IMG/VR virus record: IMGVR_UViG_3300025030_002198
Location: 1 to 23,709 of that record
DNA length: 23,709 nucleotides
Source: a virus
Reading direction: 5' to 3' (one strand)
The notes beneath the pieces were generated by a model. That model worked only from the letters and a program-made list of their open reading frames with translations. It searched no databases and had not been told where the DNA came from. Below, in pieces: positions 6,909 through 20,370 of the stretch (the stretch's first letter is position 1; each line of letters starts with the position of its first letter). The position numbers were made by a program, and so were the translations under genes.

Positions 6909-9686
6909 ATGAAATTACAAGATTTTCTATCAAATAATGTTACAACTAATACACAGATAACTACTTATCAAAGTGGGTTTTTGGAATTTTTAAAGTCTTC
7001 AGAAAAAACTTCTACTAAATATAAGCCATTAGGAATGGAGCAGTTGTACTTTGACTGGTTAAGAACAGCATATTCGTATAGAAGGATGTTTATTCAGGAT
7101 TTATATTTATTAGCTTTTGATATAACTGAAGTAAGAACAGCTTTATTACATCTTAAAAATGAAATATTTAGGAAAGGCTTTGATGAGTGGATTCCAAAAT
7201 TTGTTGCTAAATGCCCAAAATGTGCTATTGAATATCAAGAACCCACAGAATTTTGTCCAGATTGTTTTAAAACTGAAGAGAAATTAGCTGGATATAATGT
7301 TGAAAAAGTATTAAACTCTGCAGGCGAATATGAGTTAAATAAAAAGCCATATTATGAAAAAGCTTATGTATTAGATGAAAAAGGCAACAAAGTTAGAGTA
7401 GAAACAATTTCTCCAGATTTATCACAAATAGACTATTTTGAAAAAGTAAAATATAATTGTAATGAGTTCGGAAAAACTATAGAAGATAATCTTCGTATGG
7501 TTGTAGATGATGTTAATATTTGTGTTGTTCCTGAAACTTTGATTTATAGAATGACACCTAAGCAAGGATATACACAAATTAAAAATATCCAAGTTGGTGA
7601 TAAAGTATATACTCATACTGGAAAAGTAAAAAAAGTACTTAAAGTATATACTAGGCAAATTAATGAAGAAATATTTAAGTTAACTTTAGATAATAGAGAG
7701 ATAATCAAGATTACTGGAAATCACCCTATTTATACAAAAAGAGGTTGGATTAGGGTGGATGAATTAACTAAAGAAGATATTCTGTATAAATTATCAGATG
7801 TTAAAAATTATACAAATAATTTAACTTCAGAAGAAAGAAAAGTTAGATGTTGGAAAGTTGGAGCTTTAAAAAGAAAAGGTATAAAAAGAGGAAAGTATAA
7901 TTATATAAGTCCTAGAAAAGGTTTAACTTGGGAACAATATTATGGCTTAGAAAAAGCAAAAATAATAAAAGAAAAAAATTCTTTAAGTCAAAGTGGAAAA
8001 CCACATGGATATAACTTTAGGAAAAAAATAGGAAATTTTAAAGGTTTAAATAATCCTAATTGGAATGGTGGAATAGCTCGATTGCCATATACTTTTGAAT
8101 TTAATAATGATTTAAAATATCAAATATTTAAGAGAGACAATTTTACTTGTCAAATATGCAAAAAATATTCCATAAATTGTTCTGCACACCATATCGATTA
8201 TGACAAGACAAATTCTGTTGAGAAAAACTTAATTTCTTTATGTAAAAGTTGTCATATGAAAACTGGATACAGAAGAGAATTTTGGAAAGAGTTTTTGACA
8301 AATATTATTAGTGAGAAGTATGTTTCTGTGCATAATGGTTCTCGTATTATTGAAATAAAGAAAGAATGTTATGAAGGTATTGTATACAACTTAGAGATTG
8401 AAGATGATAATTCATATGTTGGTAAGGGTATTATTTATCATAATTGCGATGATGCTTTCTTACTATTAAATAAAACTTATAAATATGAGAACAATAAATT
8501 AAAGTATTCAAAAGTAGAAGAGATTAGAAGAATACATCCAGCGTTAATGGAAATAGAGTTGGACAAAGAGGGTCTTCCAAAAAATACTCATTGGATTTGT
8601 TATGAGCATAGGGGTCAGCCACGAACAGATCCCGGTTTATGCTTAGTAGATGAATGTGGCAAAGAGACTTTTCCTGTGATGTACATTTACAATCATAGGG
8701 GATCTAGATTGTATTATACTGAAGATGAAATAATTCATTTTAGTAGATTTTCCGAAAGTGACAGTTATGGGTACTCTCCCCTCTTAACTATTATGCAAAA
8801 AATATTGACTTTATCTGGAATGGACAGATTCTTGTATAGATACTTTTTTGAAAGAAAAACACCCACGGGCATTATATTAACATACACCGATGATCCAAAG
8901 TCATTAGATATAGCTAAAGATACTGTGGAATCTAAAATGATGGAAGATCCAACATATACTCCATGGGTGGCAGTTTCTACAAAAACTGGTAGGGGAAGAA
9001 CTGATTTTGTGCGGCTATTCCACACTTTACATGAAATGGATTATTTGCCAGTTAGAAATGAAATCCGAGACAGAGTGTCTTCTATTTATGGCGTTCCTCA
9101 AATGTATATGAATGTTATGGAGGGAGTGGGAGGTATAAGCGGACAAACACAACAATTAAGATTATTTTCAATCACTATAGAAGACTACCAAAGAATTATA
9201 AATGAAAAGGTGCTTCCCAAAATACTTAAAGCTTTTGGTATTACTGATTGGGAAATTAAACTTAGAACACCAGAGGAAAAAACTGAGCAAGCACAATTGC
9301 AAGTTTCGCAACAAAAAATACAATTAGCGAATGCTTTATTCCAGATGGGATTTGATATCAAATTGCAAAAAGGAAAAGGAAGAAATCTGTTTGATATTGA
9401 TTTTTCTGTTAGTGGAGAAGCTAAACGTCTTGACATGGGCGGTGGATTACCTATGCAGAAACCCGGCGGTAAAGATTTAGCTTTACCTGGTGAAAAAGAA
9501 GACAAAGTTGATGAAGAGAAAAAATCTCCTGATGAAGTTGAAAAGCTATTAGCTGAGTTTAAAAAGCCAAGAAAAAATACAAGAGAAGAGGATGCATTTA
9601 ATGAAGTAGAGTCTAAATCATTAGATTCTCAAGAAGATTCTGATAAATCTAAACAAGAGAACATGGTATGGAATGAGCATAAATAA
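6909..9686 (+). CDS. Portal protein, interrupted by an intein
   Basis: 925-aa precursor; removing the 308-aa intein (residues 205-512) leaves a 617-aa portal. Typical portal features lie in the C-extein: D-E-I-I-H-F, then SESDSYGYSPLL, then a long helix with FERKTPTGIILTY, and IRDRVSSIYGVPQMYM, which matches the SPP1/HK97-type portal core and the late helix leading to the stem and crown. Residues 102-119 hold a CPKC-x10-CPDC zinc ribbon. A second possible site is C564-x2-H567 with C578 and C583. The C-terminal ~100 residues are Lys/Glu-rich and probably disordered. The portal forms the dodecameric DNA gate of the capsid. The ATG is preceded by AGGG. It is the last clear virion gene before the sigma/replication region. 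Confidence 0.85.
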   Translation: MKLQDFLSNNVTTNTQITTYQSGFLEFLKSSEKTSTKYKPLGMEQLYFDWLRTAYSYRRMFIQDLYLLAFDITEVRTALLHLKNEIFRKGFDEWIPKFVAKCPKCAIEYQEPTEFCPDCFKTEEKLAGYNVEKVLNSAGEYELNKKPYYEKAYVLDEKGNKVRVETISPDLSQIDYFEKVKYNCNEFGKTIEDNLRMVVDDVNICVVPETLIYRMTPKQGYTQIKNIQVGDKVYTHTGKVKKVLKVYTRQINEEIFKLTLDNREIIKITGNHPIYTKRGWIRVDELTKEDILYKLSDVKNYTNNLTSEERKVRCWKVGALKRKGIKRGKYNYISPRKGLTWEQYYGLEKAKIIKEKNSLSQSGKPHGYNFRKKIGNFKGLNNPNWNGGIARLPYTFEFNNDLKYQIFKRDNFTCQICKKYSINCSAHHIDYDKTNSVEKNLISLCKSCHMKTGYRREFWKEFLTNIISEKYVSVHNGSRIIEIKKECYEGIVYNLEIEDDNSYVGKGIIYHNCDDAFLLLNKTYKYENNKLKYSKVEEIRRIHPALMEIELDKEGLPKNTHWICYEHRGQPRTDPGLCLVDECGKETFPVMYIYNHRGSRLYYTEDEIIHFSRFSESDSYGYSPLLTIMQKILTLSGMDRFLYRYFFERKTPTGIILTYTDDPKSLDIAKDTVESKMMEDPTYTPWVAVSTKTGRGRTDFVRLFHTLHEMDYLPVRNEIRDRVSSIYGVPQMYMNVMEGVGGISGQTQQLRLFSITIEDYQRIINEKVLPKILKAFGITDWEIKLRTPEEKTEQAQLQVSQQKIQLANALFQMGFDIKLQKGKGRNLFDIDFSVSGEAKRLDMGGGLPMQKPGGKDLALPGEKEDKVDEEKKSPDEVEKLLAEFKKPRKNTREEDAFNEVESKSLDSQEDSDKSKQENMVWNEHK
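7521..8444 (+). other. Intein with HNH homing endonuclease inside the portal gene
   Basis: The in-frame insertion begins at Cys205 (CVVPETLIYRM, block A) and continues with the G-D-K-V-Y-T block and ITGNHPIYTKRGWIRVDEL (block B, with the expected His). It ends with block F/G: YEGIVYNLEIEDDNSYV then GKGIIYHN, followed by Cys513 as the +1 nucleophile. The terminal His-Asn and Cys+1 are those needed for class 1 protein splicing. Between the splicing blocks lie a NUMOD3-like segment (KGLTWEQYYGLEKAK, GLNNPNWNGG) and an HNH nuclease (FKRDNFTCQICKK, SAHHIDYDK, NLISLCKSCH), all catalytic residues present. The segment is more AT-rich (about 25-27% GC in sampled lines) than the flanking C-extein, consistent with a mobile origin. 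All signs point to an active intein. Confidence 0.9.
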
Positions 9687-10091: not shown

Positions 10092-10583
10092 ATGAAAAGT
10101 CAAGAAGAGAAAGAGAAAGTTTTACGCCAATGGTATCCGCTAATAACTTCATTGGCGTATAAGAATTATTTTCAATTATCAATTCCTTTTGAAGACCTAC
10201 GTCAAGAATTGAATATCATTGCACTAAAAGCTCTTGATGTGCATGATCCCGTTATTTCAAAATTTTCTACTTGCTTAATCACATATCTTAAGCAGTATAT
10301 CCAAAACATAAGGAATATTAATAGATCTAAAAAAAGATATGGTTTATCTATTAGTTTGGATGATGATATCTTTGGTTATTCACTAACAAACATTGTAGCT
10401 GATAATGATTCAACTTTAGAAGAAATAGAATATCGATCTATGTTTGTCACTAGAGATGAAGAGAAATTCTATGACTTAATAAATTTAGGATATCCTTCAT
10501 ATATTGTAAAAGAGGAATTTGGTAATAAAAAATATTGGAAAATAGTAAAGAGAATGCAAAGAAAATTAACCTATTCCAGATAA
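10092..10583 (+). CDS. RNA polymerase sigma-70-like factor
   Basis: 163 aa. Residues ~30-75 match sigma region 2: PFEDLRQELNIIALKALDVHDP, then S-K-F-S-T-C-L-I-T-Y-L-K-Q-Y-I-Q-N-I-R-N, the helix that binds the core polymerase clamp and melts the -10 element. A short linker with an acidic DDD segment follows. The C-terminal ~45 residues (NLGYPSYIVKEEFGNKKYWKIVKRMQRKL) could be a reduced region-4 or helix-turn-helix. At 163 aa it is the size of phage late sigma factors such as T4 gp55 rather than a full host sigma. AAAGGAGAG lies just before the ATG, one of the strongest ribosome-binding sites in the window. I infer that it redirects host RNA polymerase to phage promoters, probably late ones. 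Confidence 0.75.
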   Translation: MKSQEEKEKVLRQWYPLITSLAYKNYFQLSIPFEDLRQELNIIALKALDVHDPVISKFSTCLITYLKQYIQNIRNINRSKKRYGLSISLDDDIFGYSLTNIVADNDSTLEEIEYRSMFVTRDEEKFYDLINLGYPSYIVKEEFGNKKYWKIVKRMQRKLTYSR

Positions 10584-17046: not shown

Positions 17047-17999
17047 ATAGCATAGGTGAATTAAGAAAAATAATGGGAACAAATCCCAAAGAAAACGTAG
17101 AACTTAAAACTGAATTCTATGAGGGTGTAAAAGGAATTTCAGTAAAACTAATGGATTATAACATTAACCCATATAAAGCGATGTATAATATGGCAACTTC
17201 AACATGGGGAAATACTATAGATAAATGGCATGAAACTTCTTTAGAAGGCAAATTCCAGGTAATAAAAGCAATATTAGAATTTAAAGCTTTGCCTAACGCA
17301 ATGGAAGAACCCACATTTTGTTTTGCAATAGAAAAATGTTCTAGATCAGCGTTTGACCAAATAGCGAGAGCTAGAATAGGGGCAGTATTTTCGAGTCAGG
17401 GTTGGCGCGACAATGATCATTCTGACATAGGATTTAGAGTGCCACAGTCAATTTGGGATGATGCGCAATCTCTTGATAATTTTAAGATATCTTGCAATAT
17501 GGCAAAAAAGGAATACCATAGATTAATTTCTGAGGGACAATCAAATTGGCAAGATGCAAGAGCTCTACTCCCTATTTCTGCTTGTCATAATTTTTCAATG
17601 TCTATGAATTATATGGCTTTAAGAAATTTTTGTAATAAAAGATTGAAAAATTGCGAACAAGCAGATACCGTAGCAGTGGCATGGTTAATTAGAGAAGAAG
17701 TGCATAAAGTATTTCCTTTATTGGGTAGTTATCTAAGACCCTCATGTGACTGGAAAAGAATCTGTGAATATCATCAGAATTATGCTTTATCAGAAGCTTT
17801 TGGTTGTCTATTTAGGAGTTGCGGTAGAAATAAAGATTTGAATCAAGATAATTATGCTTCTTTTAATTATTCTTGTTCTAATAAGGACACGATTGCAAAA
17901 CAATTAGGAATTACAATTCCTAATGCTGACGAGTATCTTCCTATTAGTAATGTAGAGTATTTATCTAAAAATGATTTTGGATTATTCAATGCTGATTAA
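17043..17999 (+). CDS. thyX: ThyX-family flavin-dependent thymidylate synthase, divergent
   Basis: 318 aa, started at GTG 17043 overlapping the previous stop (GTGA). The C-terminal half has ARALLPISACHNFSMSMNYMALRNFCNKRL followed by Q-A-D-T-V-A-V-A-W-L-I-R-E-E-V-H-K-V-F-P, the order of ThyX helices that bind dUMP and folate. The family signature RHRxxSxNxxSxRY is replaced by RARIGAVFSSQGWRDN at residues ~109-124; the two Arg residues are kept but His, Ser, Asn and Arg-Tyr are not. Canonical ThyX makes dTMP from dUMP using FAD, NADPH and methylene-THF. Here the altered signature could mean an atypical ThyX or a different flavin-dependent pyrimidine-C5 enzyme. Family assignment is good; the exact reaction is not certain. 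Confidence 0.75.
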   Translation: MNSIGELRKIMGTNPKENVELKTEFYEGVKGISVKLMDYNINPYKAMYNMATSTWGNTIDKWHETSLEGKFQVIKAILEFKALPNAMEEPTFCFAIEKCSRSAFDQIARARIGAVFSSQGWRDNDHSDIGFRVPQSIWDDAQSLDNFKISCNMAKKEYHRLISEGQSNWQDARALLPISACHNFSMSMNYMALRNFCNKRLKNCEQADTVAVAWLIREEVHKVFPLLGSYLRPSCDWKRICEYHQNYALSEAFGCLFRSCGRNKDLNQDNYASFNYSCSNKDTIAKQLGITIPNADEYLPISNVEYLSKNDFGLFNAD

Positions 18000-20370
18000 G
18001 ACAAACAATGAATTTAACACACTATTAGAGGACATCAAATCGCAGCAATATATTGGATTTGATACTGAAACTACGGGATTATTTCCATTTTTAGGAGATA
18101 GGATTTGTGGTATTTCAATTTCATTTAAAGATAAGCGAGTATTTTATATACCCATTAAGAATATATATAATAGTCATGGGTTTTCTAACAATGCGGTCAA
18201 ACTATTATATGACATGATCATTTCAAATAATGTTACTATTATTGGGCATAATCTAAAATTTGATCTCGAGATGTTATATTTTGAAAACATTGATATTTTT
18301 AAATTTAAGATATATGACACTTTAATACTTGCGCGTCTTTGTTTAAAAGAGAAATTTAGATATGGACTAAAAGAAATTGCTAGTGAATTGATTGACGAAT
18401 CAGCGAAAAGCTCAGAAGACATACTTAAAAAATTGATGCGCAAGAGTAAAATTAAGTCATATGCACAAGTTCCAATAGATGATATGGTTACATATGCATC
18501 AAATGACGCATTATATACGCTAGAACTATTTAAACTTTTTCAAAAACAAATAGTTGATGAGAACTTACAAGCTATTTGTGAAATAGAACATAGATTATTA
18601 TTTACATTAATACAAATGGAATTATCGGGCGTAAAAATTGATAGAGAGTATGTTACTAAATGTCAAGTAATAGAAACAAAGAAATTAGATTTATTACAGA
18701 AAGAGATTTTTTCTTTTGCAAGAACTGAATTTAATATATTGAGCAATAAGCAGTTAAATGAAGTGATGCAGAGTTTAAAGTTCACTTCGCCTGTAATGGG
18801 AAAAAATTCATTTTCATGGAGTGAAGAAGTTTTAGCGCAATTACAGCATCCATTTGCTGATGCAATTTTGCGTTATCGCACACGTGCTAAACTTTTATCT
18901 ACATACATTGAGCCATTTCTTAATTATACAAGTGACACTAACGAATTTATTCATTGTAATTTTAGACAGTATGGAACTAGAACAGGGCGTCTTTCTTGTG
19001 TTGAACCAAACTTACAAAATATTCCTAGAATAGAAGAATTTCCCACTAGGAACGTTTCATTAATTACTAGTAGCGATAATATTAACAAGATGATAGATGA
19101 AAATGATATTAGCAGTATTCGTTCTGCGTTTATTCCATCAATAGGGAAATTATTTTTCTTTGATTATAGTCAAATGGAGTTACGAGTTGCAGCTGATTAT
19201 GCAAATGAAGACGTGATGATTGATGCATTTAATAAAGATATTGACGTACATAGCGCTATTGCACATGAGTTATTTAAGATGCCCGAAGACAAAGATTCAG
19301 CAGAATATAAGTATTTGCGTGATACAACTAAAAAAATAGATTTCGGTATATTATATGGTATTGGCCCGAAATTATTATCTACACAAATAAACAAAACGTA
19401 TGATGAAGCTAAAGCGTACTTAAATAAATTTTTTAAGCGCTTTAAGAGTTTAAAACAATTTATTGATAAAGTTGCAAAAACAGTTGAAACTAGAGGTTAT
19501 ATTTTTAATAAATTTGGTCGAAGATATCGAATTGATGCAGAACGTTCATATACGGGGATTAACTATTTAGTGCAAGGATCTTGCGCAGATATATTAAAAT
19601 CTGCAATGGTGAAAATTGCAGACTATTTAAAAGATAAGAAAACAAGAATGATTCTATCAATTCATGATGAGCTAGCATTTGATGTTGCAAACGATGAATA
19701 TTTCGAGGTTATTCCTAAAATAAAAGAAATAATGGAATTCTCTAGTGTACTTAACCGTGTGCCATTAAAAGTTGAAGTTGCGTATTCATCATTTAGTTGG
19801 GGTAAAAAAGCTGAATTTAATATTGACTTATATAATTTACATTGTCAACAATATAGTTGTTCAAACTGCAAATTATGCGAACTAAGTGTGAATATAGCAA
19901 ATTCTCAATTGGGTCATGGGAAATTAATTGGCTATGGTTTTGGAAAAGTCTTCTTTGTTGCGCAAAATCCATCTTATTATCGGCATAAAAATATTATCAC
20001 GCCCATTGATGACGTGGGTATCAGTCGCCAATTCATGAACATGCTATTTTCATTGGGTTTTAAGTCAAAATATTACTATACAAATTTAGTTAAGTGCAGC
20101 ACTAAAGATAATATTGTTCCTGATATTGAAACTATTAATGTTTGTGCAAATAATTGGCTACAAAAAGAACTTAAAATCGTACAACCTAAATTAATTGTTG
20201 CAATGGGAAAGCTATCAATAGATTTTTTCAATGGTAAATTAGGCGAATTTACTCACTATAATGATTGTGATGTATATTCGATATATCATCCGTCGTATAT
20301 TGCGCGAAACAATAATTTAAAGAAAGAATACATTGAGGAGTTAGAAAAAATTATAGGAGTTGCAAAATAA
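17971..20370 (+). CDS. DNA polymerase I (3'-5' exo plus polymerase) with C-terminal uracil-DNA glycosylase domain
   Basis: 799 aa from ATG 17971; ATG 17989 has a better GGA at 7 bases and is an equally likely start. Residues ~28-180 are the DnaQ-like proofreading exonuclease (FDTETTGL, IIGHNLKFDLEML, YASNDALYTLEL), acidic residues intact. Residues ~330-610 are the family A polymerase: motif A FFFDYSQMELRV, motif B KKIDFGILYGIG, motif C LSIHDELAFDV. Residues ~625-799 match Fe-S UDG: C630-x2-C633-x2-C636, VFFVAQNPSYYRH, then LVKC709-x15-C725, and IYHPSYIARN. There is no 5'-3' exonuclease domain. This is the phage replicative polymerase joined to a uracil-removing domain. It overlaps the ThyX-like gene by 29 or 11 bases. 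Confidence 0.88.
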   Translation: MILDYSMLIKTNNEFNTLLEDIKSQQYIGFDTETTGLFPFLGDRICGISISFKDKRVFYIPIKNIYNSHGFSNNAVKLLYDMIISNNVTIIGHNLKFDLEMLYFENIDIFKFKIYDTLILARLCLKEKFRYGLKEIASELIDESAKSSEDILKKLMRKSKIKSYAQVPIDDMVTYASNDALYTLELFKLFQKQIVDENLQAICEIEHRLLFTLIQMELSGVKIDREYVTKCQVIETKKLDLLQKEIFSFARTEFNILSNKQLNEVMQSLKFTSPVMGKNSFSWSEEVLAQLQHPFADAILRYRTRAKLLSTYIEPFLNYTSDTNEFIHCNFRQYGTRTGRLSCVEPNLQNIPRIEEFPTRNVSLITSSDNINKMIDENDISSIRSAFIPSIGKLFFFDYSQMELRVAADYANEDVMIDAFNKDIDVHSAIAHELFKMPEDKDSAEYKYLRDTTKKIDFGILYGIGPKLLSTQINKTYDEAKAYLNKFFKRFKSLKQFIDKVAKTVETRGYIFNKFGRRYRIDAERSYTGINYLVQGSCADILKSAMVKIADYLKDKKTRMILSIHDELAFDVANDEYFEVIPKIKEIMEFSSVLNRVPLKVEVAYSSFSWGKKAEFNIDLYNLHCQQYSCSNCKLCELSVNIANSQLGHGKLIGYGFGKVFFVAQNPSYYRHKNIITPIDDVGISRQFMNMLFSLGFKSKYYYTNLVKCSTKDNIVPDIETINVCANNWLQKELKIVQPKLIVAMGKLSIDFFNGKLGEFTHYNDCDVYSIYHPSYIARNNNLKKEYIEELEKIIGVAK

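Follow-up and report, generated by a model that had tools for sequence, protein, structure and literature searches.

The interrupted portal gene

The window analysed here is a stretch of 23,709 nucleotides from a virus known only from metagenomes (IMG/VR). Within it lies the gene of the portal, the protein ring that serves as the channel for DNA packaging. Its reading frame, without an internal stop across its whole length (925 aa), contains an in-frame insert of exactly 308 codons, corresponding to residues 205–512 of the precursor (Table 1). The first residue of the insert is a cysteine (Cys1, 7521–7523) and its last two are His-Asn, followed by a second cysteine at position +1 of the C-extein (HN and this Cys at 8439–8447). 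An earlier reading made from the sequence only had placed an intein in a portal protein at these positions, and its coordinates proved exact: the profile, structure-model and empty-site evidence described below all agree with it.

Table 1: Positions of the portal precursor, its exteins and the blocks of the intein in the window.
Feature	Position	Strand	Length and evidence
Portal precursor ORF	6909..9686	+	925 aa, stop within coordinates; PF04860 above cut-off; phrog_18178 E 4.7e-40
N-extein	6909..7520	+	204 aa, C-terminal end ...DDVNI; alignment with intein-free portals
Intein	7521..8444	+	308 aa; Pfam Intein_splicing E 3.5e-14; TIGR01443/TIGR01445; fold match to solved inteins; absent from relatives
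Block A, Cys1	7521..7544	+	
Block B with TGNH	7701..7736	+	
HNH endonuclease motif with two cysteine pairs	8127..8267	+	Motif; phage HNH families; 48% identity over 96 aa to a free-standing HNH protein
Blocks F and G, His-Asn end	8376..8444	+	TIGR01443 above cut-off
C-extein	8445..9683	+	413 aa; Cys+1 at 8445–8447; alignment with intein-free portals

The flanks of the insert match the Pfam family PF04860 (Phage_portal) with 40.6 bits against a cut-off of 39.1, which identifies the host protein as an HK97-type portal, and they also match the portal family phrog_18178. The closest named portals are those of the haloarchaeal viruses HCTV-5 and HVTV-1, at about 23–26% identity, and of a virus assigned to Methanomassiliicoccales. 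No portal relative was confirmed in bacterial or archaeal genomes with the two peptide patterns used, and a sequence search of solved structures with the portal returned one weak portal match, which leaves the insertion site uncovered. The exteins contain two Cys-rich, zinc-ribbon-like motifs, CPKC...CPDC and C-x2-H...C-x2-C, and ten intein-free relatives all retain the C/H/C/C of the second.

Two further genes of the window deserve mention. In contrast to the archaeal-virus relatives of the portal, a small protein encoded at 10092–10583 has a sigma-70 region 2-like domain, just below the Pfam cut-off. At 17971–20370, a single ORF encodes a family A DNA polymerase, with its exonuclease and polymerase domains, and at the C-terminus a domain of the uracil-DNA glycosylase superfamily.

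The splicing domain

The Pfam Intein_splicing profile matches the insert well above its threshold (53.3 bits, cut-off 35.8). The NCBIfam profile intein_Cterm is above its cut-off (19.4 bits, cut-off 15.6), while intein_Nterm falls about one bit short (23.4 bits, cut-off 24.5). The TxxH signature of a class-1 block B is present as TGNH (intein residues 65–68), and its T, N and H are invariant across 17 aligned inteins. Cys1, the GD of block N2, the TGNH of block B and the ending of blocks F and G are conserved between the insert and phage ribonucleotide reductase and helicase inteins; an intein alignment that also had HNH rows was discarded, as MAFFT had misplaced these rows. The splicing blocks, terminal HN and Cys+1 listed by the sequence-only reading are thus all present.

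An AlphaFold2 model of the intein was generated from the window and locus sequences only. It is mostly confident for residues 1–90 and 273–308, and poor between these. The confident parts superimpose on the NpuDnaB intein (4o1r; Z 18.7, 131 residues, 2.2 Å) and on the gp41-1 intein (6riz; Z 18.5, 124 residues, 1.6 Å), with both matches spanning model residues 1 to 308, and the best Foldseek match of the model has an E-value of 1.5e-6. In the model the Hint fold is formed by both ends of the intein, which are encoded in a single open frame and not, as in a split intein, in separate genes. By its motifs and its predicted fold, the insert is an ordinary class-1 intein in layout, and it very likely splices.

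The endonuclease domain

Between the two Hint halves lies the putative endonuclease, FKRDNFTCQICKKYSINCSAHHIDYDKTNSVEKNLISLCKSCHMKTG, with the H, N and H of the HNH motif (HH 223–224, Asn 236 and His 245, in intein numbering) and four cysteines (Cys 210/213 and 241/244) all intact. The Pfam HNH profile PF01844 scores 17.9 bits, below its cut-off of 21.4; phage HNH families match the region better (best E 1.5e-12), and it also resembles IscB-type HNH domains. I therefore describe the domain as HNH-like by its motif and by the phage families, without support at the Pfam threshold. Homing by this intein, a prediction from known intein biochemistry, is likely.

An intact NUMOD3/HNH region had been proposed at the outset. 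The HNH part of this proposal stands, with a complete motif. The NUMOD3 part was not detected: PF07460 gave no Pfam match in the intein at E ≤ 10, a search in which the HMMER filters drop weak matches, and the repeats are NUMOD3-like by eye only. A related free-standing HNH protein has a weak NUMOD3 match (E 0.026), below the cut-off.

The insertion site in relatives

Relatives of the portal were gathered with an IMG/VR search using the C-extein, a wider search using empty portals, and a search with a conserved region (484 relatives, of which 80 were kept). The intein-free portals among them are at 54–56% identity and below, and the close ones lack exactly the insert of the window. Their sequence at this position (hereafter site A) reads D-x-N/S-I followed directly by x-D-D, closing precisely at the junction that had been proposed. 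Site A is empty in L002, L003, L004, L005/L006, L008, L009, L041/L042, L044 and L048, and the junction motif HN[CST] is absent from 68 more distant portals. The refuting outcome named beforehand, homologous portals that contain the segment, was looked for and not encountered. A fold model of the empty portal (L002 and nine relatives), intended to place the insertion sites in the portal ring, had a mean pLDDT of 44 and was unusable.

In the IMG/VR searches, the only other carrier of the site-A intein is the contig IMGVR_UViG_3300009031_000713, which shares 99.4–99.9% identity with the window along about 11 kb. IMG/VR yielded no allele from the same population that lacks the intein (a degenerate Cys/Ser junction query retrieved only the L002 contig), and so gives no evidence of recent mobility. 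Base composition was considered as a sign of recent entry and rejected, because the intein, with a G+C content of 25.9%, differs little from the N-extein at 27.9% (C-extein, 34.3%).

The residue at position +1 is variable. Among 16 other portals whose alignment covers site A, it is Val in 13, Ala in two and Ser in one; Cys is found only in the window, and the +1 codon differs from that of the window in every relative examined. In the tree, the window and the virus with Ser, L002, are sisters (support 0.894). L002 encodes this Ser as TCT, which a single base change would turn into a Cys codon; the window has TGC. Val and Ala cannot act as the +1 nucleophile in splicing. Since the Cys+1 codon belongs to the extein and not to the intein, either the lineage must already have drifted to a compatible +1 residue when the intein invaded, or co-conversion during homing must have brought the Cys codon with it.

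The flanks of site A had also been read as a conserved homing site (DDVNI followed by CDDAFLLL). D-4, D+2 and D+3 are indeed invariant in the 16 relatives. The 12-residue region as a whole, however, ranks no higher than the 72nd percentile when conservation is compared along the portal, so the site should not be called exceptional, and exceptional conservation was rejected as a property of the insertion site.

A second site in the same portal family

Four contigs (L008, L009, L010 and L044) have an intein elsewhere in the portal, between SGQ and TQQ, downstream of site A (site B). These inteins are 334–343 aa long, with Ser1, an HN end, Ser or Thr at +1, and LAGLIDADG motifs. They share the portal family with the window intein, but differ from it in site and in type (Ser1 and LAGLIDADG as opposed to Cys1 and HNH), and are unrelated to it. 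Site B is empty in the window, and none of the contigs found has an intein at both sites. The portals of L009 and L044 are 69.5% identical and their inteins 33.4%, whereas for L008 and L044 the values are 55.1% and 52.9%. Because intein and portal identities disagree, the site-B inteins were not simply inherited with the portals, and the comparison points to independent entries or transfer. One portal family has thus been hit at two sites by two classes of endonuclease.

Proposed mechanism and alternatives

In my interpretation, to which I give a probability of about 0.93, an uncultured tailed virus here carries in its portal gene a mobile intein of class 1 that has its own HNH homing endonuclease. 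On the known biochemistry of inteins, the 925-aa precursor would be translated as one chain, in which Cys1 would start an N-to-S acyl shift. The N-extein would then pass to Cys+1 by transesterification, and cyclisation of Asn308 would free the intein and leave the exteins rejoined as a 617-aa portal (...DDVNI-CDDAF...). In co-infected cells, the HNH domain of the freed intein would attack portal alleles that lack the intein, nicking or cutting them at the D-x-N-I/x-D-D codons; with the intein-bearing copy as the template for repair, the intein would be copied into the cut allele. The Cys+1 codon may have pre-existed (compare the Ser of L002) or may have been co-converted.

An intein that splices but no longer homes, with an inactive HNH domain and vertical inheritance with the virus, is unlikely but is the best of the alternatives. 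It would fit the restriction of the intein to one near-identical pair of contigs, the lack of an intein-free allele found in the same population, and the Pfam HNH score below cut-off. However, a decaying endonuclease usually loses its catalytic or zinc residues, or is deleted, whereas here the frame is open and has kept the catalytic H, N and H as well as the zinc cysteines.

It is improbable that the intein owes its retention to an effect on the maturation of the portal, which it would delay or make conditional (on redox or temperature, for instance), thereby regulating packaging. Such a conditional or regulatory role has been suggested for the terminase inteins of cyanophage Mic1 (PMC7156551), and the chemistry of Cys1 and Cys+1 could in principle be redox-sensitive; but the patchy occurrence and complete endonuclease agree with an element that is mobile and regulates nothing. 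Still less probable is a Hint domain that only cleaves, of the bacterial intein-like or toxin-release type, leaving the exteins unligated. PT-HINT and bacterial intein-like domains do occur among the matches, but Cys+1 and the His-Asn end are present, and the C-extein is the complete, conserved remainder of the portal, needed by an essential protein. Finally, that the insert belongs to the normal portal fold of this lineage can be dismissed, as no support for it was found, the empty homologues close exactly at the junction, and the insert itself has a Hint fold and intein motifs.

Beyond the mobile intein itself, I tentatively propose, at a little less than even odds, a history for this portal gene. 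In this virus clade inteins would have entered it repeatedly, at two or more sites and with the HNH and LAGLIDADG types arriving independently; and at site A, where most relatives have Val or Ala at +1, this residue would have become Ser and then Cys in one lineage, opening the site, or the intein would have brought its own Cys by co-conversion. If true, this would be a traceable case of an intein entering a site whose usual residue forbids splicing, and the +1 pattern provides a concrete, testable example of such an entry.

Comparison with known inteins

The type of intein is well known, and the portal gene is its less usual home. The suggestion that a portal host gene is uncommon holds in this sense, but portal inteins are already published: the 229 mycobacteriophage inteins of Kelley et al. 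(2016, PMC5050341, Table 1) include six portal (PORT) inteins, all from phages of cluster C1. Among the papers searched, none uses the phrase 'portal intein', and in the parts examined of the annotation of phage ET08, consulted for a known mycobacteriophage portal intein, no portal is labelled. The PORT inteins have a phage portal as host gene, as in the window, but occur in other hosts and in the portal orthologous group POG1190, and are likened to the window intein by host gene alone. The window is therefore a further case in a new host lineage, and brings a second lineage of virus portals into what is a short list.

Other intein candidates were seen among the phage loci. In Gordonia phage SchottB (L132:592-3693), a MuF-like minor capsid protein has an in-frame Hint segment ending in VHN followed by C, a candidate structural-gene intein. 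In Streptococcus phage vB_SagM-GXN1 (L136:741-3356), a long unannotated ORF begins close to a sequence that resembles the C-terminal end of an intein (VVSHN followed by C), and a Hint N-terminal domain comes later in the frame. The 595-kb phage LR756511 has a ribonucleotide reductase ORF (L131:2246-5242) with two apparent inteins.

In structure, the gp41-1 and NpuDnaB inteins have a Hint fold like that of the window intein, but they sit in other exteins, and their chains of 127–142 residues are too short for an HNH domain. In sequence, the nearest N-terminal splicing domains are those of phage ribonucleotide reductase inteins and UvsW-helicase split inteins (35–48% identity over about 75–95 aa). 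The full-length aligned ribonucleotide reductase inteins are without the mid CxxC/HNH motif, whereas the window intein has an HNH domain; and the UvsW inteins have their two parts in different genes, whereas that of the window is contiguous. The HNH domain in turn is 48% identical over 96 aa to one of the free-standing NUMOD3-like phage HNH endonucleases (253 aa, in LR756504, a 636-kb phage), which is encoded by a gene of its own, while that of the window sits inside an intein. Because the two parts have separate best matches, I infer that a splicing domain of the ribonucleotide reductase/helicase type was joined to an HNH module of the free-standing type.
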